The notes below the pieces were generated by a model. It was not told where the DNA came from. It worked only from the letters and a program-made list of their open reading frames with translations, and made no database searches. Positions 185 to 53,654 of a stretch of DNA of 64,000 nucleotides are shown one piece after another. A program made the translations under genes and the position numbers. Origin of the DNA: Paramarasmius palmivorus (taxonomy: Eukaryota; Basidiomycota; Agaricomycetes; Agaricales; Marasmiaceae); NCBI GenBank assembly GCA_037176845.1, contig JAYKXP010000091.1, positions 1-64,000 on the forward strand. Direction: 5' to 3'. Each line of letters opens with the position of its first letter. Positions within the stretch are counted from its first letter, which is position 1.

Positions 185-3100
185 ACATGGAATTACATCC
201 AAAACATGACATCAGAGCAATAGTCCGTTAGCAAACAAGACATTACATCTCTGAACAGTAAACCTCTGCCCATCATTCACTTCCAGCATGGTCTTAGCTC
301 CATTGAAATCGTTCAACAGGAATCAATCATATATAACAAACAGAACTCGCTTTTATCTCGTCTCGATATTTACAGCCAGATCTTGTCAATGTACAGCCTA
401 GTAGCACATGCTACCCACCAATCAAAACTGGTGCACTCTCAAGAGAACTAAGATTTATTCATGCAGGCTACACAAACTGTTCTTCGTCGTTCTTTCTTTA
501 TACTTGTGCACAGCTGAAAGTTGATAGAGACATCATGACATGACTCAAAGCTTGAGACTTGACACCTTGACAGAGAAAACGTAGGTAAGCACATAGTACC
601 TCTGCAAAGAAGTTCCACAGAGGCATTTCCTTGCAACTTGAGTTGTTCTTGAAAACATCAGCTCCACCTCAGAACCTTGATATTTGATCATCCTATACAA
701 CGTCACACTTGCACCTTCAAAATTCATAAACTTGAGTAGTCTTTCCATTATAAACTGATTTCAGAGCCTTAAACGTGTAGCCCATGAAAAAGTAACCACC
801 ACAGATAACAGTCTTCCTTAGAAAGACAGAGCAAGAAAAAAGGCACTTCACAACCCAAAGTTCAATGTCACACAAGAGTTCAGCATCATAGTCAAGGCCC
901 ATGATACCACATGCAGATGTCAGTCAGACCTAAAACCACTCTCAAGCATTAGCATGGGATAGGCATGACATGCAAGACAAGACATACCTATATACCTATA
1001 CGTTTATTGCCCTACGACTTCACTACCAGTCCTGTATAGAATCACTTCAGGGAGTGTATGCGTGTAAATGAGGGATCTCACCTTTCAGAACTATGTCAGC
1101 AGTGGATAGGTATTGACTCAAAACACCTACAAGGGCAAGCACAGCATGAGTAACACAGATCCATATGATGAATAACTCAAAGTCCCTTAAAGTCTTTGCT
1201 GCCTTCAACATATTTCCCGTTGTCAAGGTTGACCTCGATATCCATTCACAAACTCACTTCTGTTCTCAATGCTATGATAAGGCAAGTCAGCAAAAATTAT
1301 TGACACATCAACACGTGTACTTGCCTACTCCAGAGACAGAGCAGCAAAGCTAGCAAAGACCCAAGTCACAGGGGGCGACAATGGTAAGCATGTGTGAGAC
1401 AGCGGTGGCAATAAGGACATTGACGTTGATCATGGCGGCGATGAAGAGGATGGGCATTCACGTTGAAGGCATCAGCAAGGGAGTTGACATGGCCAGCGCC
1501 ACCTTTGGCGGGCTCAAGTGTGACAGTGCTGGCGTTGTTTGGGAAAGACGGTAGGAGCAAAGTGGGACCACTAGCAGCGAGGATACTGGATGGCAACGAC
1601 AAGCAGACAGTATTGATGATGATGATGGCATCAAAGCTTGACTGTCAGGTTGGGTGTCGATATTGACTTTGACGATGGCGTCGGCGCTGGCAAGCTCAAC
1701 CAGTAGCCAGTTGGCAGTGTTGGCAATGGAGAGGGAGGTTTGATAAGTAGCAGTGACGTTGAGGGGTCAGTGACGGCGAGCTTAAACACTGGCAACGGCG
1801 TTGAGCTAGCGTTGATGAGGGTGATGGTAAAGGGTTCGTCAGCAGTGGTGACCGTCAGCTAGACAAGATTGAGTACAGGGAAAGGGAGATGGTCGTCGTT
1901 TAGGAGAAAGAAGCAATCCGTGGAGTTTGAAAATCACAGGGAATAAATACATACCCAAAAATCCCACAGGGGCTGCCTCACCTGATTTTCGTGTTGGCAA
2001 CCCTTGAGGGAGCTCCAAACAACGTGGCTTGACCAATATCACTCTCACCGACTCTGGCATTTGGCCTTGGTCACACAGATGTATGTGGTCTCTTGTCCTC
2101 TTGCCTTCCACGGTATTCTCCTTTTTCTCGTATAAGGACTCAGTAGGCTCTTATACGACCATAGACCTCTTGTCACACCTTGCTTCCCGCTTTAGCCTAG
2201 TCATAACCTTTATAACTCGTGTTCATCTTCGTCACTGGTTGCAACCTAACCATAACTCGTCATGATAGCCCGTCGACTCGTCATAATAATCGCTAACAAG
2301 CCATGCCTGATTAACGACTTTACGACAGTTCACCGGGTGTTGTTACGAGTAATAGAGCAAGCCACCTCCATGACGACACCTCTATATCCAGGTGTCCCGG
2401 ATCTTGGGAGGTCCTTCCAGGGAACATAGGTCGTATCCAGTGTATGATCACCTGCCCATTGGTGTGATGCAACCCCGCTACAGACACATTCCAGAGTCAC
2501 CAATGCCTCCCAGTGTAGTGTCCTTCACACAGTCCACTGCGCCGTCTCATCATCCAACAATACGTCGGCAGATTGTTTCCTTCCATGCGAGAATCCTTAA
2601 ACACAATGCGCGATGAACAACAATGTTGCTTGCGCTCACCACATGTTCCCAGTGGATAGCTTCGATCACTCATACGCCAAGTTTTCCGCCATGTGTTCTT
2701 CAGAGAATTCATCTCAAGGAAGATAGGCGAGAAATCAGGTACTTTGTAACCTGTCTCTACTCTCAAGTTTAATAGAGTTCCGACCTCGCCTCAAAGCCCT
2801 ACGAATGCTCCCCGCATTCAACACTTCAACCTCAAAAGTTATTCATGTAGCTTGACAAAAGCCTCCAGACACATCTCGCAGCCTCATCATGCAGCAGCGG
2901 CAAAGATTCCATAGTTACTCCGTTTTCATCAAGAGGCACCACATAGTATAGGCATAATGGGTCTCAAATATCGATATCACTTCCCACAGCCACGATGAGC
3001 AAATAGTGCCACTCACACGTGGAGATCTCCTAATCCTTCTCCTCCTGAGCTTCCCGTCTTTGCATACACCGATAGAGAGCAACATCGATCAAAGGACAAT

Positions 3101-4026
3101 GTCGGTCCTTGTTTGAGTGAGGTTTCAAACCTTTCCAACAGACTCGACGAAAACAAACTGCTCAAGACAAAGGCACGGAATAAATTTCGACGTGGCTACA
3201 TCACCTGCAAATACCGGCCTTCTTTCACCCCTACAACAACAACCTCAAGTAAGTTCCACAGAGGCCCCGAAAACAAAGCTTGACGTCTATCCTGGCAGAA
3301 AGTCGAACTGAACTGTATGCAACACATATGCCCTTCGTGAGCTCCAAGGGATACCGATAGGACCAGAAGATGGCAACCATCGTCTCAATACCACTCAAAC
3401 CCAAGCCAAAAGACAACAAGAAGCTTGATGCTGGAGATGTGGGGTAAGTGTCACAAACCAAGCTCAAACAGCAAGCCTGACTACCTTCACTTCCGGTCCT
3501 CAGTATTAACTGCGCACACAAAGCTCCCATTCTTCTCGTCAATCCCTGACCTATGGGCTGCTCTGTTCCCTGTACACCGTTATTAGGGTTGAAGAGCTCG
3601 TTGTTCGAGACAGCAGACTCGGAACACATCCCGGAACCACTGTCAGTGACGACTCAACGCTTTCAGACACCTGCATAATGTCCATCCTGGTGTCAGAGTA
3701 CCCACCTCCTTGTTCACAGGGCTTTCATCCCTCGGACATCACCTGATTTTACTGACGAATGACAAACATAGGTCAAACACTCAAATCCTTGATGCGCAAT
3801 GCATGCATGCAGCGATAGACATTGTGCGGTGAGTGCTAGCAATGAAAAATGTGATGACGCCATCTGGATTGAACAAACTTCAACAAAGTACATAACACCA
3901 CCTGATAGTAGGGGTCGACCCATGCGGTTACTGGGTCCATTCAGTCACAGGTAGACTCGGCAACCCAAATGGGTCCTATATAAAATTTCAAACTTGAAAA
4001 TCCAATGGAATTTAATCATTTTCTTT

Positions 4027-4058
<32 letters not shown>

Positions 4059-5100: not shown

Positions 5101-5103
5101 AAA

Positions 5104-5134
5104 ACGTATAAGACTTGCATGGAGGCTTATACGA
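5104..5134. promoter_or_regulatory. 31 bp dyad upstream of the decayed Ser/Pro-rich gene
   Basis: ACGTATAAG, 13 bp spacer, CTTATACGA. It ends 103 bp before the ATG at 5238, the same kind of placement as at the intact genes of the cluster. Confidence 0.7.
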
Positions 5135-8371: not shown

Positions 8372-8402
8372 TCGTATAAGGCCTCAGTGGGGTCTTACGC
8401 GA
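8372..8402. promoter_or_regulatory. 31 bp dyad inside the array unit (first of seven copies)
   Basis: TCGTATAAG, 13 bp, CTTACGCGA. Equivalent sites at 8861, 10072, 10911, 12961, 13527 and 15305 are part of the ~420 bp unit and were multiplied with it. The right arm is diverged from the perfect inverted repeat, but the 13 bp spacing is kept. Confidence 0.7.
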
Positions 8403-9276
8403 CTGTCCCATGGACAAGCCCATCGGCTCTGGAAGCCGCCAGCTGCATCAGCACCCAAAGCACTTCCAGCAGAAGGCCGTCAAGTATGCCTTGGAGCCTC
8501 GTGTTCTGCATGAAAAAGATATCACTGATTTAATAGTCATCCAACATCTTTCTTCCAGAGCAAGAAATAAATAAAAAAATAAAAATAAATGAAAAAATAA
8601 AAATAAGTAAAAGGCTGGCACAACTCCAGCACCTGTCCCCGATGTGAATACCATCTCTCCTGCCGTCACCCACCTGATGGCAGCAGAGACAGAGAGACAG
8701 AACCGAGAGGAAAAGAAAGAGAAAGACATCGGGTCGAGTGGGACGGTGGATGGCAGTCCCGACCTTCTCCCTCAGGGTCTAGGCCTCGCGATGAAGGCCC
8801 ACCTGGCTTGTCGTCTACCGTCCTCCCTCCACTGGCCCCCTGCGTCGCCCTCCTTTTTGCTCGTATAAGGCCTCAGTGGGGTCTTACGCGACTGTTCCAT
8901 GGCCAAGCCCATCGGCTCTGGAAGCCGCCAGCTGCATCAGCACCCAAAGCACTTCCAGCAGAAGGCCGTCAAGTATGTATGTCGGTTTCACAATCTAGCA
9001 GCAGGCCAGGCTAGGCCTCCTCTTATCTTCCCATCGCATAGAAAACCATTCCTGCCTTGAAGCCTCGTGCTCTGCATGAAAAAGATATTACTGATTCAAT
9101 AAAGTCTTCTAGCTTGTCAGAGACCTGGAATATGACGTTTGCTGACTTTGAGGGTGTAATCAGCAGGCATTTGCTCGCCCAAGCTGAAGTGAAAATATTA
9201 GTTGGTGCTTGTTTTGGGAATGGCATCACACTTACTGGTGGTAGCATCGTGCATCTAGAGGAAAGTTATTAATGCA

Positions 9277-9660
9277 CTAGAATGAACAGGACTCGAGAAG
9301 GGTGCCTACCATTTCAGTATCCTCTAGAGGTCCTACCTCGAACACGGGCTTTCTCTCGGCGGTGATTCGATTCACATCCAAAAGCTGGCATAGGTGTTTG
9401 GTGGTTTTCTTCAAATTGAGTCCAGTCAATACCATAGGAATCCCTTCCAGAATGGTTATGTTGGAGAATCTGTATCCTATCTCTGTCGTGTTGAATGGTT
9501 CAATTATATCCGATGCAACAAAAGAGTTTTCCGAGTATGTCGTGCCCTTGTCTTCTCCGTCGTTCCTGGAGTCTTCAGCCATTTCCTTGTCTTTGGAATC
9601 TATGCTCATCTCTGGTGGTGGGGGGATATCTACGTATTCTCTTTGGTAATACTCGGCCAT
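9277..9660 (-). CDS. Possible gene fragment of unknown function inside the array
   Basis: A 127-codon ATG-initiated frame (MAEYYQREYVDIPPPPE...) in an otherwise unique ~400 bp segment between repeat units. Composition looks protein-like: a Pro patch, an acidic Asp/Lys/Glu-rich stretch, then a more ordered end with IPMVLTGLNLKKT. No family recognised. It may be an exon or fragment captured when the array formed. The adjacent plus-strand frame at about 9057-9272 runs out of a diverged minisatellite unit and also looks partly coding-like. Confidence 0.35.
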   Translation of the reverse strand: MAEYYQREYVDIPPPPEMSIDSKDKEMAEDSRNDGEDKGTTYSENSFVASDIIEPFNTTEIGYRFSNITILEGIPMVLTGLNLKKTTKHLCQLLDVNRITAERKPVFEVGPLEDTEMVGTLLESCSF

Positions 9661-10269
9661 TCCAAATAGTCATCCAATATCTTTCTTCTCATCCCATCGA
9701 AAACCATTCCTGCCTTGGAGCCTCGTGTTCTGCATGAAAAAGATATCACTGATTTAATAGTCAACCAACATCTTTCTTTCAGAGCAAGAAATAAATAAAC
9801 AAATAAAAATAACTGAAAGGCTGCCACAATTCCAGCACCTGTTCCCGATGTGAATACCATCTCTCCTGTCGTCACTCACCTGATGGCAGCAGAGCAGAGA
9901 CAGAGAGACAAAACCAAGAAGAAGAGAAAGAGAAAGACATCGGGTCGAGTGGGACGGTGGATGGCAGTCCCGACCTTCTCCCTCAGGGTCTAGGCCTCGC
10001 GATGAAGGCCCACCTGGCTTGTCGTCTACCGTCCTCCCTCCACTGGCCCCCTGCGTCGCCCTCCTTTTTGCTCGTATAAGGCCTCAGTGGGGTCTTACGC
10101 GACTGTTCCATGGCCAAGCCCATCGGCTCTGGAAGCCGCCAGCTGCATCAGCGCCCAAAGCACTTCCAGCAGAAGGCCGTCAAGTATGTATGTCGGTTTC
10201 ACAATCTAGCAGCAGGCCAGGCTAGGCCTCCTCTTATCTTCCCATCGCATAGAAAACCATTCCTGCCTT

Positions 10270-10605
10270 GAAGCCTCGTGTTCTGCATGAAAAAGATATC
10301 ACTGATTTAATAGTCATCCAATATCTTTCTTCCCATCCCATCGAAAACTATTCCTGCCTTGGAGCCTCGTGTTCTGCATGAAAAAGATATCACTGATTTA
10401 ATAGTCATCCAATATCTTTCTTCCCATCCCATCGAAAACTATTCCTGCCTTGGAGCCTCGTGTTCTGCATGAAAAAGATATCACTGATTTAATAGTCATC
10501 CAATATCTTTCTTCCCATCCCATCGAAAACTATTCCTGCCTTGGAGCCTCGTGTTCTGCATGAAAAAGATATCACTGATTTAATAGTCATCCAACATCTT
10601 TCTTC
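10270..10605. repeat. 91 bp minisatellite, short run
   Basis: Successive copies of the GCCTCGTGTTCTGCATG start lie at 10273, 10364 and 10455, exactly 91 bp apart and nearly identical. The unit ends with CCCATCGAAAACTATTCCTG. Confidence 0.92.
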
Positions 10606-11026
10606 CAGAGCAAGAAATAAATAAAAAAATAAAAATAAATGAAAAAATAAAAATAAGTAAAAGGCTGGCACAACTCCAGCACCTGTCCCCGATGTGAATA
10701 CCATCTCTCCTGCCGTCACCCACCTGATGGCAGCAGAGACAGAGAGACAAAACCAAGAAGAAGAGAAAGAGAAAGACATCGGGTCGAGTGGGACGGTGGA
10801 TGGCAGTCCCGACCTTCTCCCTCAGGGTCTAGGCCTCGCGATGAAGGCCCACCTGGCTTGTCGTCTACCGTCCTCCCTCCACTGGCCCCCTGCGTCGCCC
10901 TCCTTTTTGCTCGTATAAGGCCTCAGTGGGGTCTTACGCGACTGTCCCATGGACAAGCCCATCGGCTCTGGAAGCCGCCAGCTGCATCAGCACCCAAAGC
11001 ACTTCCAGCAGAAGGCCGTCAAGTAT

Positions 11027-12675
11027 GCCTTGGAGCCTCGTGTTCTGCATGAAAAAGATATCACTGATTTAATAGTCATCCAATATCTTTCTTCCCATCC
11101 CATCGAAAACTATTCCTGCCTTGAGGCCTCCTGCCTTGAAGCCTCGTGTTCTGCATGAAAAAGATATCACTGATTTAATAGTCATCCAATATCTTTCTTC
11201 CCATCCCATCGAAAACTATTCCTGCCTTGGAGCCTCGTGTTCTGCATGAAAAAGATATCACTGATTTAATAGTCATCCAATATCTTTCTTCCCATCCCAT
11301 CGAAAACTATTCCTGCCTTGAGGCCTCCTGCCTTGAAGCCTCGTGTTCTGCATGAAAAAGATATCACTGATTTAATAGTCATCCAATATCTTTCTTCCCA
11401 TCCCATCGAAAACTATTCCTGCCTTGGAGCCTCGTGTTCTGCATGAAAAAGATATCACTGATTTAATAGTCATCCAATATCTTTCTTCCCATCCCATCGA
11501 AAACTATTCCTGCCTTGGAGCCTCGTGTTCTGCATGAAAAAGATATCACTGATTTAATAGTCATTCCAATATCTTTCTTCCCATCCCATCGAAAAACTAT
11601 TCCTGCCTTGAGCCACTCTTGAAGCCTCTTCCCATCCCATCGAAAACTATTCCTGCCTTGGAAGCTGTTCTGCATGAAAAAGATATCACTGATTTAATAG
11701 TCATCCAATATCTTTCTTCCCATCCCATCGAAAACTATTCCTGCCTTGGAGCCTCGTGTTCTGCATGAAAAAGATATCACTGATTTAATAGTCATCCAAT
11801 ATCTTTCTTCCCATCCCATCGAAAACTATTCCTGCCTTGGAGCCTCCGTGTTCTGCATGAAAAAGATATCACTGATTTAATAGTCATCCAATATCTTTCT
11901 TCCCATCCCATCGAAAACTATTCCTGCCTTGGAGCCTCGTGTTCTGCATGAAAAAGATATCACTGATTTAATAGTCATCCAATATCTTTCTTCCATCCCA
12001 TCGAAAACTATTCCTGCCTTGAGGCCTCCTGCCTTGAAGCCTCGTGTTCTGCATGAAAAAGATATCACTGATTTAATAGTCATCCAATATCTTTCTTCCC
12101 ATCCCATCGAAAACTATTCCTGCCTTGGAGCCTCGTGTTCTGCATGAAAAAGATATCACTGATTTAATAGTCATCCAATATCTTTCTTCCCATCCCATCG
12201 AAAACTATTCCTGCCTTGAGGCCTCCTGCCTTGAAGCCTCGTTTCTGCATGAAAAAGATATCACTGATTTAATAGTCATCCAATATCTTTCTTCCCATCC
12301 CATCGAAAACTATTCCTGCCTTGGAGCCTCGTGTTCTGCATGAAAAAGATATCACTGATTTAATAGTCATCCAATATCTTTCTTCCCATCCCATCGAAAA
12401 CTATTCCTGCCTTGAGGCCTCCTGCCTTGAAGCCTCGTGTTCTGCATGAAAAAGATATCACTGATTTAATAGTCATCCAATATCTTTCTTCCCATCCCAT
12501 CGAAAACTATTCCTGCCTTGGAGCCTCGTGTTCTGCATGAAAAAGATATCACTGATTTAATAGTCATCCAATATCTTTCTTCCCATCCCATCGAAAACTA
12601 TTCCTGCCTTGGAGCCTCGTGTTCTGCATGAAAAAGATATCACTGATTTAATAGTCAACCAACATCTTTCTTTCA
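11027..12675. repeat. 91 bp minisatellite, main run
   Basis: About 17 tandem copies of the 91 bp unit. Some carry an extra ~20 bp GAGGCCTCCTGCCTTGA segment before the unit junction, so two unit lengths alternate. Confidence 0.9.
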
Positions 12676-13629
12676 GAGCAAGAAATAAATAAACAAATAA
12701 AAATAACTGAAAGGCTGCCACAATTCCAGCACCTGTCCCCGATGTGAATACCATCTCTCCTGCCGTCACCCACCTGATGGCAGCAGAGACAGAGAGACAG
12801 AACCGAGAGGAAAAGAAAGAGAAAGACATCGGGTCGAGTGGGACGGTGGATGGCAGTCCCGACCTTCTCCCTCAGGGTCTAGGCCTCGCGATGAAGGCCC
12901 ACCTGGCTTGTCGTCTACCGTCCTCCCTCCACTGGCCCCCTGCGTCGCCCTCCTTTTTGCTCGTATAAGGCCTCAGTGGGGTCTTACGCGACTGTTCCAT
13001 GGCCAAGCCCATCGGCTCTGGAAGCCGCCAGCTGCATCAGCACCCAAAGCACTTCCAGCAGAAGGCCGTCAAGTATGTATGTCGGTTTCACAATCTAGCA
13101 GCAGGCCAGGCTAGGCCTCCTCTTATCTTCCCATCGCATAGAAAACCATTCCTGCCTTGAAGCCTCGTGTTCTGCATGAAAAAGATATCACTGATTTAAT
13201 AGTCATCCAACATCTTTCTTCCAGAGCAAGAAATAAATAAAAAAATAAAAATAAATGAAAAAATAAAAATAAGTAAAAGGCTGGCACAACTCCAGCACCT
13301 GTCCCCGATGTGAATACCATCTCTCCTGCCGTCACCCACCTGATGGCAGCAGAGACAGAGAGACAAAACCAAGAAGAAGAGAAAGAGAAAGACATCGGGT
13401 CGAGTGGGACGGTGGATGGCAGTCCCGACCTTCTCCCTCAGGGTCTAGGCCTCGCGATGAAGGCCCACCTGGCTTGTCGTCTACCGTCCTCCCTCCACTG
13501 GCCCCCTGCGTCGCCCTCCTTTTTGCTCGTATAAGGCCTCAGTGGGGTCTTACGCGACTGTCCCATGGACAAGCCCATCGGCTCTGGAAGCCGCCAGCTG
13601 CATCAGCACCCAAAGCACTTCCAGCAGAA

Positions 13630-14006
13630 GGCCGTCAAGTATGCCTTGGAGCCTCGTGTTCTGCATGAAAAAGATATCACTGATTTAATAGTCATCCAAT
13701 ATCTTTCTTCCCATCCCATCGAAAAATATTCCTGCCCTTGAGGCCTCCTGCCTTGAAGCCTCGTGTTCTGCATGAAAAAGATTTCACTGATTTAATAGTC
13801 ATCCAATATCTTTCTTCCCATTCCATCGAAAACTATTCCTAGCTCGTGTTCTGCATGAAAAGATCACTGATTTAATAGTCATCCAATATCTTTCTTCCCT
13901 TCCCATCGAAAACTATCCTGCCTTGAGGCCTCCTGCCTTGAAGCCTCGTGTTCTGGCATGAAAAAATAAAAAAAAAGAAAAAAAAAAAAAACAAAATAAA
14001 AAAAAA

Positions 14007-14041
<35 letters not shown>

Positions 14042-14122
14042 AAAAAAAAAAAAAAATAAAAATAAAAAAAAAAAAAATAAAAAATAAAAAAAAATAAAAA
14101 AAAAAAAAAAAAAAAAAAAAAA

Positions 14123-14163
<41 letters not shown>

Positions 14164-15005
14164 TATCACTGATTTAATTCATCCAATATCTTTCTTCCCA
14201 TCCCATCGAAAAACTATTCCTGCCTTGGAGCCTCGTGTTCTGCATGAAAAGATATCACTGATTTAATAGTCATCCAATATCTTTCTTCCCATCCCATCGA
14301 AAACAATTCCTGCCTTGAGGCAGCCTTGAAGCTCGTGTTCTGCATGAAAAAGATATCACTGATTTAATAGTCATCCAATATCTTTCTTCCCATTCCCATC
14401 GAAAACTATTCCTGCCTTGGAAGCCTCGTGTTCTGCATGAAAAAGATATCACTGATTTAATAGTCATCCAATATCTTTCTTCCCATCCCATCGAAAAACT
14501 ATTCCTGCCTTGGAGCCTCGTGTTCTGCATGAAAAAGATATCACTGATTTAATAGTCATCCAATATCTTTCTTCCCATCCCATCGAAAACTATTCCTGCC
14601 TTGAGGCCTCCTGCCTTGAAGCCTCGTGTTCTGCATGAAAAAGATATCACTGATTTAATAGTCATTCCAATATATCTTTCTTCCCATCCCATCGAAAAAA
14701 CTATTCCTGCCTTGGAGCCTCGTCTTGTTCTGCATGAAAAAGATATCACTGATTTAATAGTCAATCCAAATATCTTTCTCCCAACCCATCGAAAACTATT
14801 CCTGCCTTGAGGCCTCCTGCCTTGAAGCCTCGTGTTCTGCATGAAAAGATATCACTGATTTTAATAGTCATCCAATATCTTTCATTCTTCCCCTGGCCAT
14901 CTCCCATCGAAAGACATATATCCTTCCCAACCAATCGCCTTGGAGCCTTGAAGCGTGTTCTGCATGAAAAAGATATCACTGATTTAATAGTCAACCAACA
15001 TCTTT
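13630..15005. repeat. 91 bp minisatellite, degraded run with A-rich insert
   Basis: The same unit but with many 1-3 nt indels. It is interrupted at about 13962-14160 by some 200 bp of almost pure A with scattered T. The indel density is much higher than in the 11.0-12.6 kb run. Confidence 0.88.
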
Positions 15006-15555
15006 CTTTCAGAGCAAGAAATAAATAAACAAATAAAAATAACTGAAAGGCTGCCACAATTCCAGCACCTGTTCCGATGTGAATACCATCTCTTCCTGTC
15101 GTCACTCACCTGATGGCAGCAGAGCAGAGACAGAGAGGACAAAACCAAGAAGAAGAGAAAGAGAAAGACATCGGGTCGAGTGGGGGACGTGGATGGCAGT
15201 CACCGACCTTCTCCCTCAGGGTCTAGGCCTCGCGATGAAGGCCCACCTGGCTTGTCGTCTACCGTCCTCCCTCCACTGGCCCCCTGCGTCGCCCTCCTTT
15301 TTGCTCGTATAAGGCCTCAGTGGGGTCTTACGCGACTGTCCCATGGCCAAGCCCATCGGCTCTGGAAGCCGCCAGCTGCATCAGCACCCAAAGCACTTCC
15401 AGCAGAAGGCCGTCAAGTATGTATGTCGGTTTCACAATCTAGCAGCAGGCCAGGCTAGGCCTCCTCTGACTGGAGCCACATGGAAGCAGTGCAGTGGGCA
15501 GCACCCTTATCACAAACCCATCACGCAGTTACCTTAAAGCTCTCCTCCGCCAGAC

Positions 15556-17290: not shown

Positions 17291-17321
17291 TCGTATAGCC
17301 ATTGCTCAGGTGCTTATACGT
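17291..17321. promoter_or_regulatory. 31 bp dyad upstream of the YLP-module gene at 17397
   Basis: TCGTATAGC, 13 bp, CTTATACGT. 75 bp lie between the dyad and the ATG, the same distance as at the next gene. Confidence 0.75.
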
Positions 17322-18392: not shown

Positions 18393-18423
18393 ACGTATAG
18401 GCCCTTCCAGTGTTCTTATACAA
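18393..18423. promoter_or_regulatory. 31 bp dyad downstream of YLP gene 1
   Basis: ACGTATAGG, 13 bp, CTTATACAA. Between genes 1 and 2, about 240 bp after the stop codon of gene 1. Confidence 0.6.
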
Positions 18424-18635
18424 GACAGAAACAAAGAAAAAAACAAAACAACACAAAACAAAACAAAAAAGAAAGGAAAAGAAAAGAAAAAAAAAAATAC
18501 AACCCGGAAAGTTGTTATATCTATCACGTGTATATAAAGCAGACCAAGTGCCATTCCCACGCTTTGCATCTTGGCTATTGACTGCCACCATCACTGCAAC
18601 CTGCCAGCCACCAACAGACCATCACAGATCTGAAG

Positions 18636-18718
18636 TCGTATAGCAAGCCAGCATAGTCTTATACGCAAGCCAGTCCAGTTAGTCCAGTCGTATAGCAGCA
18701 AAGAGAGGCCTTATACTA
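18636..18718. promoter_or_regulatory. Pair of 31 bp dyads upstream of the gene at 18794
   Basis: Two sites, 18636-18666 and 18688-18718, both with a 13 bp spacer (left arms TCGTATAGC). The second ends 75 bp before the ATG. Confidence 0.75.
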
Positions 18719-19108: not shown

Positions 19109-19140
<32 letters not shown>

Positions 19141-32203: not shown

Positions 32204-32239
32204 AATGTGCTGGACAGAAGCTCAAGAGACTCGGGATAT

Positions 32240-33207: not shown

Positions 33208-33245
<38 letters not shown>

Positions 33246-40000: not shown

Positions 40001-40022
40001 TCAATCTGAATAAACCGAATGA

Positions 40023-40065
<43 letters not shown>

Positions 40066-41048
40066 TAAGGAAAGAACAAGTAGAATAGACATACCTCCTT
40101 TGCTGATATTACCTCTGCCTTGCTCAAAGCTATAATCTCATCCAACGTTAGCTTCCTCTTCTCCTGCTTTCGGTGGAGTCCTTCCTCTTCCTCTTCCTCT
40201 TCCTCTTCCTCTTCCTCTTCCTCTTCCTCTTCCTCTTCCTCTTCCTCTTCCTCTTCCTCTTCCTCTTCCTCTTCCTCTTCCTCTTCCTCTTCCTCTTCCT
40301 CTTCCTCTTCTTCCTGCTCTGGTCTCCTCCTCTCCATACTTGCAGCCATACATATGTCTTCTTCTTCCTCTATATCTGTAGCCATGTCTATGTCTCCCTC
40401 TTCCCACATATCTGCAGCAGCCATATCGATGTCATCTCTCTCTTCCTCTGTATCCAAATGTGTATCCAAATCACCCATATGTGTATCATTGGTGATGCCG
40501 TTGTTGAAAGGAAGAAGAGGTGGGCAAAAAGCAGACGAGGAAGGACCATTAGTCAGGTCCTCCATCTAGACAGAAAATGAATGTCAACAATCGAGTCGGC
40601 CGGCCGGCACACATAGGCATCCTGTATGCATACGTACCTCAAAGTCGTCATTATAGTCGTTGACTGAATTATCTTCAGGAAAAGTACTATTACTTGTGGA
40701 TATAATAATGTCTTCCATCGGTGGCTATTTTCTTGATGGTCAGCATGAACGTATGAGCTATGTCTGTTCTCTTATATGCACCTCTGTAGCGCCATCGCTG
40801 GTGGTAGTGTTGGAGGGCAAGTAATTTACTTTGCCTGCATGTCTTTGAATCTTGTTGGGAGCAGTATAGGCATGTCCCGAGGGAGAGCTGGTGCAAAAGC
40901 AGATGAACTGTCCCTTAGCATTACGGACCACAGATATTTCTGTTCCATCTGCATATCTGACAGTTACACTGGACTGATGCTTTCTGTTACACGCCCGGCG
41001 TGCTGCAGCAGTCTCATGTCCTCTTCCACAATGCTTGCAGTCAGGCAT
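34002..41048 (-). CDS. Telomere-linked RecQ-like helicase with N-terminal zinc fingers, seven exons
   Basis: Seven exons join without a break: 41048-40782, 40724-40638, 40565-40095, 40005-39137, 39054-36458, 36366-36286 and 36214-34002, giving 2,194 residues. Exon 1 holds a Cys/His finger (C4, C7, C20, H24); its 57 nt intron carries a CTGAC branch site. A Glu run follows (about residues 190-250). Two C2H2-like fingers are next (C298-C302...H313-H318, and CEEC...HYERYH), as in fungal DUF3505/OrsD-type proteins, then the TPFKPFQQGDTLKRYGQ segment and a GSPPRGTE motif typical of that family. The helicase has ATGSGKS (1590-1596), DEAH (1700-1703), TATAP (1732-1736) and QEMARAGRDG (1878-1887), then a Cys-rich C-terminal region. 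Telomere-linked helicases sit near chromosome ends in many fungi and are thought to act in end maintenance or recombination; the activity here is inferred. It is transcribed towards the telomere. Zinc-finger and helicase assignments are firm, the central region less so. Confidence 0.88.
40749..40779. promoter_or_regulatory. Degenerate 31 bp dyad in helicase intron 1
   Basis: ACGTATGAG, 13 bp, CTTATATGC, filling more than half of the 57 nt first intron. Confidence 0.5.
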
Positions 41049-41199
41049 GATCTAGACAGAATGATTGGGGGAGGATTGATGATGATCACGATACAATGGT
41101 AGACAAGGGAGAGGAGCAGTCAGACAAGAGCAACAACAGCTGAAAAAAAGCCTGCAGCTACTCACCAGGACAGTGTGAAACTGTAGTAGTATAATGAGC

Positions 41200-41666
41200 A
41201 CAGACCAGGTTCTTGAACGCAAGATGAGAAGGGAGAGTGAGTGAGAGGAAGAGAGGGGTGTGTCTGTGTGTGACACAGTCGTATAAGGGCAGACCAGGTT
41301 CTTAAACGCAAGATGAGAAGAGAGAGTGAGTGAGAGGAAGAGAGGGGTATGTCTGTGTGTGACACAGTCGTATAAGGGCAGACCAGGTTCTTAAACGCAA
41401 GATGAGAAGAGAGAGTGAGTGAGAGGAAGAGAGGGGTGTGTCTGTGTGTGACACAGTCGTATAAGGGCAGACCAGGTTCCTAAACGCAAGGTGGTGAGAA
41501 GAGACTGAGTGAGAGTGTGTGGTGGCTGAGTGAGAGAGGAGGAGAGAGAGGTGTGTTGGTAGTGTCGTATAAGGGCAGACCCAGCTCTTAAACGCAAGGT
41601 GAGGGGAAAGTATGAGTATGAGTCTGGACTGAATGTCGTATAAGATATTAACAGAGCCTTTTACGC
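41200..41666. repeat. 89 bp tandem repeat with dyads, upstream of the helicase gene
   Basis: Units start their dyads at 41279, 41368, 41457 (89 bp apart) and, after an insertion, 41565; a fifth diverged dyad is at 41636. Each unit joins a (GTGAGTGAGAGG)-type purine stretch to TCGTATAAG-N13-CTTAAACGC. The nearest dyad ends up 230 bp from the helicase ATG. Confidence 0.88.
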
Positions 41667-42232: not shown

Positions 42233-42754
42233 TTACCACTGATTTTCTCTGTTGACTCCACTAACCCAGTCGTTTCCATCGTTTCCATCGTTCTCCCAAT
42301 CGTCTCCATTGTTCTCCCAATCGTTTCCATCGTTCTCCCAATCGTTTCCATCGTTCTCCGAATCATTTCCATCGCTCTCCCAGCCAGCTCTGTCATTCGC
42401 CCAGCCAGCTCTGTCATTCGCCCAGCCAGCTCTGTCATTCGCCCAGCCATTTCCTTCATTCTCCCAGCTGGTGCTTTCATCCCACCTGTTTTCATCGTCC
42501 CAGCGAAACTCTGTCTCTTGCTCCCCTTCACTTCCTTCTTCTACTCCATCACGCCAAATAAAGTCAACGGCCGGCTCGTCTCTGACATCTACATCACAGA
42601 AACAGTTACCATACAGAGACTGACCGAGCTCTGTACAGGCTGTATCAAAAGAGAGAAGCTTTTGATCAAGGAAGGTTTGAGTTTCTGTGTCCATGTTCTG
42701 TTGCCAATAGCTGTTTACCACACTTAAATCGGGCCAGCGTGCTCTGTTTGTGAG

Positions 42755-42805
<51 letters not shown>

Positions 42806-43065
42806 AAGGGGGAGGAGAGGAGAGGAGAGTTTACTCACTTGTATCTTGGAGGAATATACTGTTCTATTTTTAGAGATTCAACGACGTCAACGTTCTGTGT
42901 TGGCGATATTGGTGGAGATGCTGAGAAGCAGAGAAAGAATTGATTGTAGGTGATGAGGCAGCTTCTTCCTGAAATCAGTTCCCATTCCAGATGTGCTCGG
43001 AGGTGTTGTGGAACATCTCCATAAGGAACGGTGAACGTTGCCGAAGGCTGGATAGAAGACGTCAT
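42233..43065 (-). CDS. YLP-module protein 8 (unknown function), two exons
   Basis: Exon 1 43065-42839, intron of 95 nt containing a (GA)n tract, exon 2 42743-42233; 245 residues. Exon 1 has CLITYNQFFLCFSASPP and QYIPPRY ending at residue 75, then the phase-2 intron. Exon 2 begins KARWPDLSVV and carries FLDQKLLSFDTACTEL, grouping it with genes 6 and 7. The C-terminus is a chain of short Trp-Glu/Ala-Asn-Asp repeats (WANDRAG, WENDGND), encoded by an imperfect minisatellite. Function unknown. Confidence 0.72.
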
Positions 43066-43094: not shown

Positions 43095-43125
43095 GCGTAT
43101 AAGAAACTAGTACCCTCTTATACAT
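43095..43125. promoter_or_regulatory. 31 bp dyad upstream of YLP gene 8
   Basis: GCGTATAAG, 13 bp, CTTATACAT; only 29 bp before the minus-strand ATG at 43065. Confidence 0.72.
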
Positions 43126-43339
43126 GACAGAACTTGAAAGAGAGATTCTTGGACTGACTGACTCACCCTAATGGACAGCAGTAAGATGGTGTTGTGTTAG
43201 TTGGTGGTACAGATTCAAGAAGCTAAAAAGAAAGGAAAAACGAATAAAAAGGGAAAAAGGCCATTGCGCGTGTATGTGCATGTGTGTACGTGTATGTGAT
43301 GATGCTATGCATGTGCCATTCATATGTGAATAGCCTAGA

Positions 43340-43552
43340 CAAGACTCTGACAATCAGGGAGTGGGCATGAGTGTGAGGCCGTAGAGACGTATAAGAGAAC
43401 TGCTCAAGCTTATACGATCTCCTCCTCTTCCTCCTGCGCTCCTCCAAGACTCTGACAATCAGGGAGTGGGCATGAGTGTGAGGCCGTAGAGACGTATAAG
43501 AGAACTGCTCAAGCTTATACGATCTCCTCCTCTTCCTCCTGCGCTCCTCCGT
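43340..43552. repeat. 105 bp direct duplication containing a dyad
   Basis: Two nearly identical 105 bp copies. Each has ACGTATAAG-N13-CTTATACGA (43387-43417 and 43492-43522) followed by a CTCCTCTTCCTCCTGCGC tract. Confidence 0.9.
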
Positions 43553-45373: not shown

Positions 45374-46307
45374 TTGCCCTCAGAGGGATGCTTGGAGACA
45401 GGCATAGCACAGGTCGTATACAGGTCGGTTCGCTGCGGTTGTCTCGATTGCATATCGTGACTCGTATGTATTCTTGTCATACATATCTACTTTCATCGCT
45501 CGTACACACACACACTCCCTCGTGTCCTAGTAGTGGGGCTTGTAGCCGTTCGTTTGACTAGCATACTAGTCGATTTCCTGTAATCATCTGTTCCATCGCA
45601 TGGATCCTTTCACAATGTCGAACCCCATTTGCACGCTTCAGCATACATACTATTTCACTCATACACAACAAGCATTGTGTTTTTCTCATAAGCCAGGCCC
45701 CAACCTAGTCTCCATGTTCTTGCTTGTTCCCTTGGAGGCAATGATGATGAGCCCTAGCCTTGACGGCTCCCTCAAACATCTGTTCCATTCAAAGCGAGTT
45801 CCTGTCACTGCCCTGATTCATACATACTGTGGCCAACACCGCTGTGATTGCTGCTGTTGCCTGCCTACTTGACAGATACTCTACATCCCGGTATGACATG
45901 TCTTGTCACTCTCTTTGATGCCGACTGGACTCATCGATCATATGGCAGTAAGTAGCAGTGTTTCCATCTTTCCATCTCTGTTGTACATCCAGCTCCAGGC
46001 TCTGCTCATCAAACGCCGTGTTGATTCCTCCTTGTGAAGGGTTGGTTGGTTGACACCTGGACACGGGTCGTCTTCCAATGTGAACAGCAGAACACCACCA
46101 CTGGATTCAACCATATGCGTATAGCCCATCTCAAGGGTCTTATACGAGGTTGCGTCGTTATCCTTATCCTTATCACCCTTTTTATTACTCTATTTGCATC
46201 TGTTTTTTCTTGACCACCTATATATATCAGCCATGATCAAGTTCTCACGCTTTGCCTCTTGAACCTGAACTCTCACTATTGCAAGGTATGTGTTTTATTC
46301 TTTGGAT
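45374..46307. other. No recognised gene; one dyad
   Basis: Short unconvincing frames only. A 31 bp dyad GCGTATAGC-N13-CTTATACGA lies at 46117-46147. Confidence 0.5.
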
Positions 46308-46750
46308 TTATTGTTTCTTTTTCTTTCTTTCTCCTCTCTTTTGGCAAGGTCGTATAAGAGATTCAACCTCTCTTATACGTGCCAGCTGGCTAAACCTTTC
46401 TTTTTCTTTCTGTCTCCTCTCTTTTGGCAAGGTCGTATAAGAGATTCAACCTCTCTTATACGTGCCAGCTGGCTAAACCTTTCTTTTTCTTTCTTTCTCC
46501 TCTTCTTTGGCAAGGTCGTATAAGAGTGTCAACCTCTCTTATACGTGCCAGCTGTCTAAACCTTTCTTTTTCTTTCTTTCTCCTCTCTTTTGGCAAGGTC
46601 GTATAAGAGATTCAACCTCTCTTATACGTGCCAGCTGGCTAAACCTTTCTTTTTCTTTCTTTCTCCTCTTCTTTGGCAAGGTCGTATAAGAGAGTCAACC
46701 TCTCTTATACGTGCCAGCTGGCTAAACCTTTCTTTTTCTTTCTTTCTGGT
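46308..46750. repeat. 83 bp tandem repeat with dyads, upstream of the ParB-like gene
   Basis: Five copies of an 83 bp unit with dyads at 46350, 46433, 46516, 46599 and 46682. Each unit is a CTTTCTTTTTCTTTC pyrimidine tract, TTTGGCAAGG, then TCGTATAAG-N13-CTTATACGT and GCCAGCTGGCT. One unit has a two-base change in the spacer. The last dyad ends 172 bp before the ATG at 46885. Confidence 0.93.
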
Positions 46751-46884: not shown

Positions 46885-47219
46885 ATGTCTGAAGAAAGAA
46901 GGTCGAGCTCCTTGAGTCCTCCTCCATCCAATCAAAGAGTGCTGCTAGAGCAGGTATGGGGCATGACTCTTCTGTTTTGTATAGTTTCCATCATAAGGCT
47001 CATATGGTCCTCTATTTCCTTCAGCAGCAACAACGACAAGAACAAGAAGAAGCTGCTGCTGCCACTGCTACTGGTGATGCTGATGCTGATGCTGCCAGTG
47101 AAAAGGTATGCACACTCCATTCACTTGACCTAGGCTTCTGAATGCTTATAATTTATCATCCTTAAACACTTTCAGATGGTAGACTCTACGAGCAGTACCA
47201 ATGGCAACAACAACAACAA

Positions 47220-47260
<41 letters not shown>

Positions 47261-47464
47261 ACAACAACAATGGCAATGGCAATACCAACAACAACCAAGA
47301 AGAGGAACATGACATGGTCATTGACGATGACAACAACAACAGCAACAACAACGGCAACACTGATGATAGCAACGGCAACGGCAATGGCAATGGCAATGGC
47401 AATGGCAGCAACGATGACCAAGACGACCAAGACGACATGGTCATTGATGATGAAAACGGCAATG

Positions 47465-47516
<52 letters not shown>

Positions 47517-50500
47517 CGGTGATGACACTGATGGTGCTGGCACTGACCATGGTGGTAGCATTGGACAGGACAGCGGCATGCAACACGTCATGGATGTTGA
47601 CGTGGACAATGGCTCCAGTGATGAATTTGACCATCATGGTAATGAGGAAGAGAAAGGCTGTTTTTCTCCGGTATGAAGTTTCCAGTGGGGATGCTTTTAG
47701 ATCTACTATAACTTGAACCAACAGGACTGGGACCTCAATAGTTTGGATTTTGAGGACGAGGGAGATAACAGTGACAGAGATGGTGCTGGTGCTGCACATG
47801 ACAGCGATGATGACGGAAGTGAGAAGGAGGAGAAGAACGGAAGCATGGCCTGTAGCAGTGGAGAGGAAAAAGAGAAAGTGGAGAAAGAAGAAGAAGGGGA
47901 TGGCGGAGGCGCTATTGATGTAGAGGAAATGGTAGAGGTAGGCAAAGGCGATAGTAATCCTACAAAGGCTGATTGAGTTCTGTAAGGCTTCAAAGAAGAA
48001 AGAAGAAAGGAAGAAGAAGAAGAAGCAGCAGCAGGTGGTGACGAGGAAGAGAAAGAGAACGGTAGGTTTGGTGTTCTGTATAAAGATGTCAAAAAGAAGG
48101 AGATGCTCAACAATATGTCTCTCTGTCCAGATACGGGACTCGGACTTGACGGACGGCGCTGAGGAAGTGGATTCAAACACGATAGCTGCACCCAAGATAG
48201 TTGTTGTGAGACAGCCGAAGCGTCCAAGGGCAGAGCCCAATATCCCCACCACCACCACCACTGCTGCTGCTGCTGCTGCTGGCAGTGGAGTTTTGAGCCC
48301 TCGTCCTCCCTCGTCTTCTGCTGGCGACGGTGGCAGAGTCACTGTGGGGCGCAAGACTCTACCTGCAGCAATCGCTGCCAGCTTGGGTGTGGTCGCCTCT
48401 TCCTCTCCTCCAGCTTCCACCAGTGGCAGCAGGCCAACGACAGGTGGAAAGAGGCCACCACCGCAGCTACCTACAGTGCCCTCGCCATCACCAGCAGGGG
48501 CACCGAGGCGTATCGGTGAAGGCAAGAAGAATCTGCCATTAGCGACACCACCACCACCACCACCACCACCAAGGCCACTCGCGTCTTCTTCGTCTTCGTC
48601 GTCTAGCAGACCCACGACTGGTGGTAAGACCATACTCCCTCCTACAGCAAAAGCGACCCCATCACCGCTCTCTTCTGCGTCATCCAGGAAGAATAAAAAG
48701 CTGATGGCAGAAGCCACGACCACCCCTCCTGCATCAGCCCTGAAAACGAAGAAGGGTGCTGTAGTAGATGCCAGCGGCAGCTTGCGCAAGGAAAGCCTTG
48801 TGAGAAGTGCTGTTGCTACATCGTCTTCTGCCTCTGGTTCTTCTCTGGCGAGGACGGGAGACAAAGGAAAAGGGAAGGCAAAGGCAGCGCCAAACCCAAA
48901 GGGAAGCACAGTGAGGGGCAGACCAACTGGCTTCAAGTCAAAGGAGTTCATCCACGACGACAGCAGCAGTGGAGAAGAGGAAAGCAGCAGTGGCAGCGGC
49001 AGCAGCAGCACTGAGGAGGAGGAGCTGGCACTTGACAACATGGGGACAGGTCGGAGGCGCCGCCTCAGCCGCTACAGGGACGATGACAAGGTCAGCAGTG
49101 GAGATGAGTACATTGGTAGTGATGACGACGGTGGCAGCATCAGCAGCGCGTCGGAGCAGCAGCAGAAGAAGACGAAGAAGCAGAAGCAGAAGCAGAAGCA
49201 GGACTCGAGAGCGGTGAAGGGAAAGGCAGCATCGACGCCCTCCACAAGCAGCACTGCCCGTGTCCGTGCACGGAACACAGACAACGGTGGTAAGAACTTT
49301 GGCCGGGTCCAAGCCCAAGTCCAACGGAAGAAGGCAAACGAGCAGGAGATAATAGAAGCAGCCGTGTCCGGCAACGTTGATGCCATGCCGATGGCAGTCG
49401 ACCCCGCCGGCCACACGTCCCTCAACCTTGCCCCGTTCCTGCTTGGGTATGGGCTCATACGACTGTCAGACATTGACATCAACCCAGCAATCACGACCTC
49501 GCGCTTTCAGAGGCCGATTCGAGAGAGCCATGCGTCTGACATCTCGAAATTGCCTTCTTACGACCCATGCAACCCCGAATTCGCTATCGACATCCAGATC
49601 CATCCAGACCTTCTGGACCGTTCGTCTCTCTTGGAGAGGCCACTGGACAACGCCAATGTCATGCCCTCTTCTTCATCATCATCAGCATCACCTGCTTATC
49701 CAATGGCTGTGTTCAAAACGGAAGGCGCTCCCAGCAGCACTGAATGGACTATGGAGGTCCTGGATGGCAACCATCGTCTCCGGGCGTTGCAAATCTACCA
49801 GGGCAGCCATTGGGAAGCATTGGATCTCCTCAGACAACGTAGAAGAGACAATAGTGGGAAGCTCTCGGAGGAAGACGCAGGACATCTGGCGAAGCTGACT
49901 GCAGAGATTCGTCAAAACAAGAGCGACATGATTCTTGTGAAGTTCTACGATTCTGGTAAGTGCCGACAACAAGGTCGTCTCTGATCACGTTCCTCACACT
50001 GACTGGGTCGGTTGGTTTCTAGCCGCTATCAACAGCAGCAGCCTAAGGTCCACCCTCATGCTCAGCCTCACAGCCAACGGACAAGTAAACCAAATGCGGG
50101 AGACCGCTAGAAACTTTAACACACTCAACCTCCACTACCTCAGGACAGCACAGAACGAGACTGACGCTGACAGGGCGCTGATGACGCTGGTGAATTTCGG
50201 CAAGGGGCAAGTGCTGGGCGTCCTCGCCCGATACTATGGCCCGGTCCTCAAGGCCTACGTCGCAATGACCCGGCATTGTGAGGAGAGTTTCAGGCACCAC
50301 GAGCTCTCCATGCCCTCCCTGGTCGCCATCCAGCAGTCCGGCGGAACCGTCTTTGATCACATCATGTTGGGGATGTGGAGGACCTTCCTTCTTGCATTTG
50401 AGGAAGGCTTGGACTTTGTGTCCCCTGAACAGGCGCAACAGTGGGCTGACAACCCAGACCTTCCAGAGGCCGAGGAGTGGCGCAAGGCTGCAGAGGAACA

Positions 50501-53043
50501 TCTCGCCGTCTACACCTTTGACACGGACATTCCCTCCCCGTTCCACAACCTCTACGACTGGCTAATAAGGTTCCTTCGACGGCTCCTTCAAGGCCCACCT
50601 CATCGACCAGTGGCACCTCTTTTTGAGGGATGACCAGGCATGGAGAACCCACTACACCACCTATGTGGAGGAAGCAATCGCCACCGTCCAAGCCAAATAC
50701 AAGGATGCCTTGAGTGACCGTGTCAAGGACAGGTCGCTACCGCCGCTTCTCTTCTCTGCAGATCAGATGAACAGAGTTCTCTGCCGCCTCCTCCACCTCC
50801 TCGTCGACACCGACCCACCTCTCATCCCGCTCCAGTACTCCCTCGTCCGGCCGTACTGGCCGGTTTTCAGCCCCAAAGCCCTGAGCTTCCTCCTTAGTGA
50901 GGTCCACCACTTACACAACACATGGCATATCGTAGCTGAGCTGCTCGTGCCTGGGTGGTATACTCTGCTGACCCTTCGCTCCACTGAGAAGGGCAGAGCC
51001 GCCGAAGCTGCTGCTGCTGCCAAAACTGCTGCCACCTCAACTTCAACTTCCAAGAACACTGGTGGCAAAGACAAGGGGAAAGACAAGGGGAAAGACAAGG
51101 GGAAAGACAAGGGGAAAGACAAAAAGACTAAAGCAGCAGCAGCAAAGAAGAGCAAGAAGGCAACTGCTGCCGCTGCTGCTGCTGCTGGTGCTGCCTCTTC
51201 ATCGAAAGGTATGGTTTCTCTCTCTCTCTCTCCTCTTACAACCACATTCTCATGCTTGGGCTTCCACCAGTGACTCTTCAAGACGTTGTCGGTGAGGACA
51301 ACCAGAACCAGAATGAACAGGAAGAGGACATCAACAAGGAGGACCAAGGCAACAACAACAATGATAATGACAACAACGACGACGACGATGAAGAGGTCAC
51401 CTTGGTCGTCGACAAGAACACAGGGCTTCTAACAAGAAAGGTCCACATCGACGTCGATGAGGATCCTCGTCCCTTCGGTGACTTCGGTGGCACCCCTGGC
51501 ACCAATCACCCTATCCCCTTCCATAACGCTACCTCGAGCATCCTGTGGTCCCTGCAGTACTTCTTCAACCGTCACCCTGACCTCACAACTGATCCCTGGA
51601 AACACAACAAGGACAGCTTTGCACATGAGCTCCAAGTGACAGCTCCCTTCTACGCCATCATTCACCTAATATTCGAGCAGAGAAGATACCTCATCATGAG
51701 GGACCCTGACTTTGCTCAGCTCCGCTTCGCAAAGAACCGGCAGCTGATTAGCAGAGGCCTCCAGCCAGCGCTCACTGCAGAGCTCAAGGCTTTGGGAGTA
51801 ACTGATGCAATGCATGCGTGGGTGGACGAAGCAACACGATCTGCAAGAAAGGACCTCGCTGAGAACCCACCACCACCTTCAGACCAGCAGGCTGACGACG
51901 ACAGCACCGGCGAGAACAACGTCACTGGCAGAACTGCCGGATACGTCCACTGGCAAAGGCCTCACCAGAGCCCAAGCAATGCCGTCCTCACCATCATCGA
52001 CCAAAAGATACGGCGATCAGGCAATGTCCACGCCTCTGACAAGCTCGTCAGCGTCTTCACCTCCATATTCACGACCATCATCGCTGCGAAGCCCCTATCG
52101 CTTCATTCACCTCAAGTCCCATTTGACTTCTGGCAACAACAAAAGAAGCAATGTTGTCTCCCTTGTCAGCAACGCATGGACGGACATGCGGAGGGTCCGA
52201 CAAATAAAAGACTTTGGTCTTGAGCCGGACAACCACGACTTCCTCCGAATAATATCAAAGATCCATGCCATCATACACGGATCAGATGGTCTGGACAGCT
52301 TTCCTGTCTGGACTGATGCCGTGGTCTCCTTCGAAGAAGTCCTTGAAGAGCACGGTATCAATCCAGAACTCGGCCAGGATGTCACAAACCAGAAGAAGCG
52401 TCATACCAACTACGCAGACACTGGCGATATTGACATAGACAGTGACGCCACCGGTAGCGACATGGATGTCGACGGAGAAGCCAAGAAGTTGAAGGCAAAG
52501 AAGAGGGAACACAAGGCTGCCACTGACTACGCAGAGGCAATGACAAAAGCCTATTTGAACGCAGAGATGTTCAGGCTGTTTAACAAAAGGGTGAAGGAGT
52601 TGAACAGCTGTGGAGGGCCAAAGGATGTCGGCGTCCCATACTATGCCAAGCCAAGTCCAAAGAGCAAAACTGTGAATACCAAATACGCGCCACCACCAAA
52701 GCTCTATGAAGTAGGGCTAGAGTTTCTAGACCATTGGCTTCATTCTTTTGTGACTGTTCGCTATCAACGGTTTGGTCTGAAGCCCGTCACCATCGCACCA
52801 AACACCAGACAGTGGACCCTCTTCAAAAGAAAGTTGTTCAAGAACCAGCCCAGCAGTTATCAAAAGCCAGTAACAGCTGATTACCTCAACGCCTTCCTTG
52901 AGCTTTCTCGTCCCCCTGTCACATGGCTCAAAGACACCCAGAAACCAGACGAAGCAAAATATTTAGATAAAATGGAAGAACTGCCTCAGGTGGCAGAGGC
53001 AATCAGGGTGGCAGATATGTATGATGATGAGGACCATGATTAG
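46885..53043 (+). CDS. Giant low-complexity protein with ParB/sulfiredoxin-like domain, eight exons, two frameshifts
   Basis: Exons 46885-46953, 47025-47105, 47176-47670, 47725-47937, 47996-48061, 48131-49955, 50023-51208 and 51271-53043. All junctions are GT-AG and keep frame, for about 1,901 residues. The N-terminal ~740 residues are disordered: Gln, a long Asn run, acidic and Lys runs, then Pro/Ser/Thr. A compact domain (about 745-910) opens LLGYGLIRLSDIDINP and contains EVLDGNHRLRAL with D853-G854-N855-H856-R857, the DGxHR signature of ParB/sulfiredoxin-like folds that bind or cleave nucleotides or nucleic acid. The C-terminal half is unfamiliar, with acidic and GKDKGKDK repeats. Reading through needs loss of one base near 50573 (a 58 nt intron with a poor donor is the alternative) and of one C in the CCCC run at 52093-52096. 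The coding quality on both sides is high, so these are either consensus errors or recent damage. Confidence 0.68.
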
Positions 53044-53313
53044 TGTATATCTGTCTACGTCTGTTATCGGTGCTGGGATCTCTACATACATATGTCTATT
53101 GATGTTGGCTGGTGCCATAGCTATATCTCATATTGATTTGAACATTGAACTGTATTTATAGAACAACCATTTGTGTAAATCTCTCGGATAATTCATCTTG
53201 ATGTTTTTTGTCCCTGAAAAGACCAGAAGGAAACAAATGTCAACAGACTCAAGACTTGAGTCTTTTACCAGAACAAAGAAATGTGACGGTCTGGACATCT
53301 GAAATGTCTTGTA

Positions 53314-53654
53314 CACGTATAGCACAGACTAGAAGGCTTATACGCAGCATAATATTGTCACAGGTCTTATGCATGTGTAGAATGGTTTAGAAGTCTGTAA
53401 ACATGGTATCGTTTGGAAAAATCCTCTAAAGAGTTTATATGTCATGTAAACTTTGCCAAAAAAAAGTGTTGTACACGTATAAGAAGGCTTGGAGGTCTTA
53501 AACGTGTTATAGAAGATACAAAGAGGTCAGAAATGTGTCATAACACTTTCAAATGCCTTGTACACGTATAAGAAGGCTTGGAGGGCTTAAACGTGACATG
53601 TAATGTTGTTCAGAAACCTCAACACGTATAAGGAAGTATAGAGGTCTTAAACGT
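53314..53654. promoter_or_regulatory. Four 31 bp dyads downstream of the ParB-like gene
   Basis: Sites 53314, 53474, 53564 and 53624, all ACGTAT-type left arms with 13 bp spacers; the last three have CTTAAACGT as right arm and related spacers. They sit between the ParB-like gene and the GGTATACC satellite and are the last dyads in the window. Confidence 0.75.

Follow-up and report, generated by a model that had tools for sequence, protein, structure and literature searches.

A rigid 31-bp dyad recurs before most modelled genes of a single telomere-bearing segment in Paramarasmius palmivorus

Forty-one copies of a 31-bp dyad, two inverted half-sites held apart by an invariant 13-bp spacer, lie in a 64-kb window (the whole stretch of DNA analyzed here) at the end of contig C91 (207,596 bp) of Paramarasmius palmivorus, a basidiomycete of the Marasmiaceae whose assembly comprises 68.3 Mb in 393 contigs. 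The dyad marks one segment of this genome, not subtelomeres in general, and stands shortly before the start codons of most of the genes modelled there. On balance we favor, with somewhat better than even confidence, the explanation that the dyads are operators of a segment-private regulon, in which a homodimer that binds DNA, and is predicted to be a product of the segment itself, would set the transcription of the segment's genes together. An earlier note on the same DNA had described the dyad but missed its privacy to one segment, as well as the orphan gene family and the recombinase-like helicase gene reported here.

Results

Dyad copies, spacing and sequence

All 41 copies claimed in the earlier note are present, 39 of them at exactly the positions given and two a single base further on (53315 for 53314 and 53475 for 53474). 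Counted against the 18 arm letters, three copies are perfect, nine carry one mismatch, 14 two, 13 three and two four. The spacer length, claimed to be invariant, proved so in a scan of spacers from 0 to 40 bp: the 41 dyads were recovered at spacer 13 with up to four mismatches, and at three or fewer, 39 dyads at spacer 13 compare with one match (spacer 23) over all other lengths. Matches with exactly four mismatches are scattered over other spacers, with a maximum of nine (spacer 11), and five first-order Markov shuffles together yielded one match at spacer 13, with four mismatches. A symmetric 10-bp half-site matrix scored every dyad at 20.4 bits or more, against 6.2 bits for the best other place in the 64 kb. 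The matrix was trained on 25 of these dyads, so its absolute scores are flattering, but the contrast does not rest on training alone because plain mismatch counts reproduce it. Given this score gap, half-decayed dyads are not seen in the window. Half-sites with at most one mismatch occur five times outside the dyads, which is near chance by a rough estimate, not a calculation.

Judged by the similarity of flanks and spacers, the 41 dyads form 25 groups; joining the copy at 5104 to the 8372-type repeat, as its homology to contig C38 suggests, gives 24, the safer count. Copies within a group are duplicates: seven belong to one long repeat with one dyad per repeat copy (8372-15335), four to an 89-bp-type repeat, two to a 105-bp tandem and five to an 83-bp tandem. 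On inspection, the listed boundaries of the long repeat do not fall at dyads. Across groups the half-site, WCGTATA[AG][GC], stays constant (all 25 left arms contain CGTAT), flanks and spacer are little informative, and the persistence of the half-site in 25 groups amid unrelated flanks argues that the site itself is maintained. The spacer sequence had been described as unconstrained, and it does hold little information across the 25 groups, but in no group does it begin with T or end with A; this bias at the spacer edges indicates a half-site of about 10 bp.

The centers of the two half-sites lie 22 bp apart, about two helical turns. Arm changes are not coupled: 193 of 225 arm cells pair (G-U counted), against a shuffle mean of 193.4, which agrees with the earlier judgment that an RNA hairpin is less likely. 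Independent variation of the arms, two-turn geometry and invariant spacing together fit a protein dimer on DNA.

Confinement to one segment

The genome search that the earlier note had called for, CGTATAAG-N(8-18)-CTTATACG, returned 14 places, all with a 13-bp spacer: 13 in the window and one at C38:181647. With the spacer fixed at N13 and up to three mismatches allowed, 57 places were found genome-wide, versus 40 for a reversed-pattern control; 39 of the 57 are in C91, one is the C38 copy, and the other 17 (ten of them scored) are no more than chance would give. Every place in the genome with at most two mismatches falls within C91:2128-46712, except the single C38 place. The idea of a general subtelomeric element fails here: among the at least 16 contigs listed with TTAGGGG-type repeats (including C83, where the repeat is internal), only C91 has dyads at this threshold, and because at least 15 other telomere-repeat contigs are without them, the dyad is not a mark of subtelomeres.

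This mushroom's own telomere repeat is TTAGGGG (window 33-183 and at least 15 other contigs), unlike the TTAGGG reported for Ganoderma, and no exact TTAGGG-type run was found in the assembly.

Dyad 5104 sits in a 1-kb block common to C91 and C38, with about 72% identity overall and arms identical at 18 of 18 letters. The strict C38 dyad (L008:1501-1531) likewise precedes a reading frame: a TATA-like box and an orphan frame follow it after about 100 bp; the window copy is without that TATA stretch.

Position relative to genes

The start is defined in ten modelled genes (A, B, C, D, E, F, G, J, P and the helicase gene), and in eight of them a dyad falls in the 200 bp upstream of the ATG, at distances between 29 bp (J) and 172 bp (P; Table 1). 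When the dyads were shifted circularly round the segment, only four of 7,658 shifts reached eight genes, and the shift mean was 1.22. For J and P we chose the start ourselves; with the modeller's own starts for these two, six of ten genes have a near dyad (six shifts reach that), and with both excluded, six of eight do (four shifts). Taking one site per group leaves seven of ten (four shifts), and adding the less certain genes I and K gives eight of 12. Placement before start codons is supported by the ATG distances and the shift test.

None of the 41 dyads touches a modelled exon, compared with 31% of random 31-mers (probability about 1e-4 for none of 25 groups). By eye, the dyads of A, C, D, G, J, the helicase gene and the P array look as if they lie in leader introns, and under a looser intron score ten of ten sites of our choosing were above the background median. 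Repeat-multiplied dyad units stand before three genes: five copies before P, four before the helicase gene and two before J.

Genes of the segment

The segment's orphan family comprises A, B, C, D (two domains), E, F, G and J, plus a decayed member, K. These are two-exon genes, with a block HFAFxQFIF...QYLPxCY in exon 1 and a block ending W..L.V.D..AW in exon 2, often followed by an acidic tail. Profiles built from hand-picked members matched exon 1 of D (E-value 1e-7), exon 2 of G (1.2e-7) and both exons of K (1.7e-6 and 4.8e-5), and since these exons were outside the training set, the family is real. A search of 5.8 billion proteins, which requires shared five-letter words and similar length, gave no family relatives beyond E and G, both on C91. 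Searching the mushroom's own genome with gene E returned nine rows: six with E-values below 0.001, all on C91, and one row outside C91, at 0.044. No known relative emerged from Pfam, PDB sequence or fold searches with the orphan family, for which the fold model is fair (predicted local distance difference test (pLDDT) 80, predicted template modeling score (pTM) 0.66).

The helicase gene matches Pfam DEAD (2e-14) and Helicase_C (8e-7), and a profile of its relatives matches BLM, WRN and RECQ chains. An OrsD-type zinc finger in the window protein is below cut-off (E-value 0.032); relatives P0003 and P0004 exceed the cut-off and P0006 has no match. In the middle of the RecQ-like protein (36458-39054) lie the tyrosine-recombinase-like residues R-K-R-H-Y, invariant in five of five aligned sequences and shared by relatives in Termitomyces, Arthromyces and Coprinopsis. 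This region has no Pfam match above cut-off and a poor fold model (pLDDT 56.9), whose integrase rows (root-mean-square deviation (rmsd) 8.1, 16.8, 10.3 and 6.3) rank level with unrelated rows, CNOT1 and Munc13 among them; a plain Foldseek search of the model gave nothing at an E-value of 0.001. A Starship element is not supported: Pfam matched no DUF3435 captain recombinase in ten scanned open reading frames of the window (67 listed) or in five A5 members.

A related gene on C23 (L040:661-5130) carries an OrsD zinc finger and seems, by eye, to begin with a Ulp1-like protease part. Before the window's helicase gene is a small cysteine-rich open frame (40758-41048, minus strand), possibly its upstream exon, the end of which overlaps dyad 40749. 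Within gene P, a stretch at 47942-49984 looks ParB-like by eye (DGNHR); Pfam gave no support.

Table 1. Dyads and genes of the C91 segment; distances run from the nearest dyad to the ATG.
Feature	Coordinates	Strand	Distance to ATG (bp)	Basis or remark
Telomere repeat (CCCCTAA)n, contig end	33..183	+		repeat scan
Dyad, perfect copy, no assigned gene	2128..2158	.		pattern scan
Dyad in C38-shared 1-kb block	5104..5134	.		alignment to C38
Seven dyads (8372, 8861, 10072, 10911, 12961, 13527, 15305), one repeat type	8372..15335	.		
Dyad before gene A	17291..17321	.	75	
Orphan family gene A, two main exons	17397..18154	+		gene model, profile search
Three dyads (18393, 18636, 18688) before gene B	18393..18718	.	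75	
Orphan family gene B	18794..19476	+		gene model, profile search
Decayed family member K, no dyad within 200 bp	19830..20288	+		profile search, both exons
Orphan family gene C	22295..22853	-		gene model, profile search
Dyad before gene C	22920..22950	.	66	
Orphan family gene D, two domain copies	23287..25153	-		profile search
Three dyads (25193, 25326, 25706) before gene D	25193..25736	.	39	
Orphan family gene E, no dyad before it	28285..28870	-		public protein VNI00_014994
Orphan family gene F, no dyad before it	29110..29610	-		gene model, profile search
Orphan family gene G	29821..30443	-		public protein VNI00_014995
Dyad before gene G	30563..30593	.	119	ATG as set by public protein
Four dyads (31512, 32054, 32173, 32749) around gene I	31512..32779	.		
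Less certain gene I, ATG 32543	open frame 32485..33507	+		contains dyad 32749
RecQ-like helicase gene, modelled 2086 amino acids; OrsD-like zinc finger (weak), tyrosine-recombinase-like middle	34002..40718	-		
Six dyads (40749, 41279, 41368, 41457, 41565, 41636) before helicase gene	40749..41666	.	30	41279-41565 are the 89-bp-type repeat
Orphan family gene J	42233..43065	-		start chosen by analysts; modeller's ATG 43125 falls in dyad
Three dyads (43095, 43387, 43492) before gene J	43095..43522	.	29	
Six dyads (46117 and five in 83-bp tandem array) before gene P	46117..46712	.	172	
Large gene P, kind unassigned	46885..53043	+		start and outer exons inferred; modeller's longest frame from 47780
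Four dyads, inner segment border, no assigned gene	53315..53654	.		

Other sequence features accompany the segment. Arrays of a 91-bp tandem repeat occupy 10232-15008 and include a 201-bp A-rich run at 13961-14161. At the inner border (53665-57530) lies a long degenerate array of GGTATACC-type palindromes and CTCGGACAAG units, adjoined by a STAND gene of the NACHT/NPHP3 type (57059-59299).

Discussion

The dyads are probably operators of a regulon private to this segment. In the mechanism that we propose, a homodimer would bind both half-sites in the leaders of the segment's genes, and the bound dimer would set the transcription of those genes jointly. The earlier reading of a dimeric protein stands insofar as fixed spacing, uncoupled arms and two-turn geometry fit it; its extension to subtelomeres at large does not. 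Because the genome offers almost no other strict target, the putative binder is predicted to come from within the same 54-kb segment. The candidates are the zinc-finger/helicase protein, protein P and the orphan proteins, among which we make no choice. The effect would most likely be repression or autoregulation, since in several genes the site seems, by eye, to follow a TATA-like box and to lie in the leader; likewise, the repeated sites upstream of J, P and the helicase gene, together with sites in leaders, suggest strong occupancy, most simply for repression or autoregulation. The fixed spacing, the independently varying half-sites, the avoidance of modelled exons, the position before start codons and the near-confinement to this segment are observed in the sequence; protein binding at the dyad, a segment-encoded binder and a repressive or autoregulatory effect are inferred.

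Several observations weigh against this explanation. No dyad falls in the 200 bp upstream of the ATG in two modelled genes, E and F, or in the less certain K and I, and no firm gene goes with dyad 2128, the seven 8372-type dyads, dyad 31512 or the four dyads at 53315-53654. Public proteins back the starts of E and G only, and these two alone (one of two genes, reached by 1,805 of 7,658 shifts) give the test no power; the starts of J and P are our own and not the modeller's. Furthermore, the exon test excluded uncertain frames: dyad 32749 lies within the frame of gene I, dyad 40749 overlaps the small frame at 40758-41048, and dyads 43095 and 30563 fall where the J and G frames extend upstream. 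A strict intron search placed only two of 21 gene-assigned dyads in candidate introns, not above the background of 5-10%, and 63 of 760 31-bp windows in the C38 block are better conserved than the dyad. The orphan fold matched nothing and so gives no sign of DNA binding; the binder is still a candidate, and joint regulation is a prediction from the letters of the DNA.

Alternatively, the dyads may be recombination sites for the tyrosine-recombinase-like domain of the helicase gene, with genes swapped or gained behind constant leaders in an integron- or shufflon-like manner, though we regard this as unlikely. The dyads resemble loxP/dif-type core sites in their inverted arms and similar center-to-center distance, may resemble them in having a recombinase-like domain in cis, and differ from them in having no central bases in common. 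Strand exchange by tyrosine recombinases normally needs identical crossover bases, yet the central bases here differ between the 25 groups and are shared only by copies inside repeats. Nor do the listed repeat boundaries, on inspection, coincide with dyads, and the domain itself is poorly supported by the Pfam, fold-model and Foldseek results given above.

It is very unlikely that a partition or replication system loads at the dyads to maintain the segment or the chromosome end. The number of sites in one segment and the unusual helicase in cis would suit such a system, but the sites avoid modelled exons and sit near start codons on the correct side, a placement that maintenance would not require, and the telomere repeat at this end is of the same type as on other contigs. 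Slightly less likely again is a spread of very short mobile palindromes through the segment. Some copies do move within larger repeats; however, a mobile unit would bring its spacer with it, yet neither spacers nor flanks are related from one group to another, and elsewhere in the genome there are almost no strict copies. Least likely, and highly improbable, are RNA hairpins in leaders or leader introns, which the leader position would allow but whose simple form is contradicted by uncompensated arm changes and pairing equal to that of shuffled arms.

Among known systems, the nearest working parallel that we found to the proposed regulon is SPE2 and its binder PfSIP2 in Plasmodium falciparum, described in excerpts of PMC2829057 as a bipartite motif of nearly fixed spacing that lies before subtelomeric genes and is bound by a dedicated protein. 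According to the same excerpts, SPE2 shares with the dyad a two-part motif, a near-invariant spacer, concentration at chromosome ends before a gene family and frequent arrays, but consists of two imperfect 6-bp repeats 4-5 bp apart, occurs at many chromosome ends and has a known AP2 binder (PMC2829057). The dyad here is an inverted repeat with a 13-bp spacer at one chromosome end and a putative binder, and falls outside the SPE2 type in sequence, in symmetry and in spread over many chromosome ends.

Gal4-type dimeric factors of fungi bind sites of the form CGG-N11-CCG, which also have inverted half-sites and a fixed spacer that sets specificity. We rejected a zinc cluster site of this type: the dyad has no terminal inverted CGG triplets, its half-site is about 10 bp and it is private to one segment. 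RecQ-like helicase genes near fungal telomeres are known, as excerpts of PMC4812632 and PMC10817607 report, and the gene here is likewise RecQ-like and on a telomere-bearing contig end; compared with what those excerpts describe, it differs in lying 34 kb from the repeats, in its recombinase-like middle and in the dyads before it. Our literature searches turned up no private dyad regulon of this kind.

A bolder account, possible but doubtful in our view, is that the 54-kb segment represents a new kind of selfish element, carried at telomeres in mushrooms, that would combine a recombinase-helicase fusion, an orphan family with its own fold and a private dyad regulon with a self-encoded binder, switched as one unit, and whose sites may also serve the exchange of coding sequences behind constant leaders.

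A cis-regulatory site so long, so rigid and so confined to one segment is unusual in a eukaryotic genome. It suggests that a chromosome end may carry its own closed regulatory circuit, along with genes for which the searches gave no relatives elsewhere. One probe for one segment offers a tractable handle on the origin and control of orphan families at chromosome ends, and bears on whether telomere-linked helicase segments are mobile elements.
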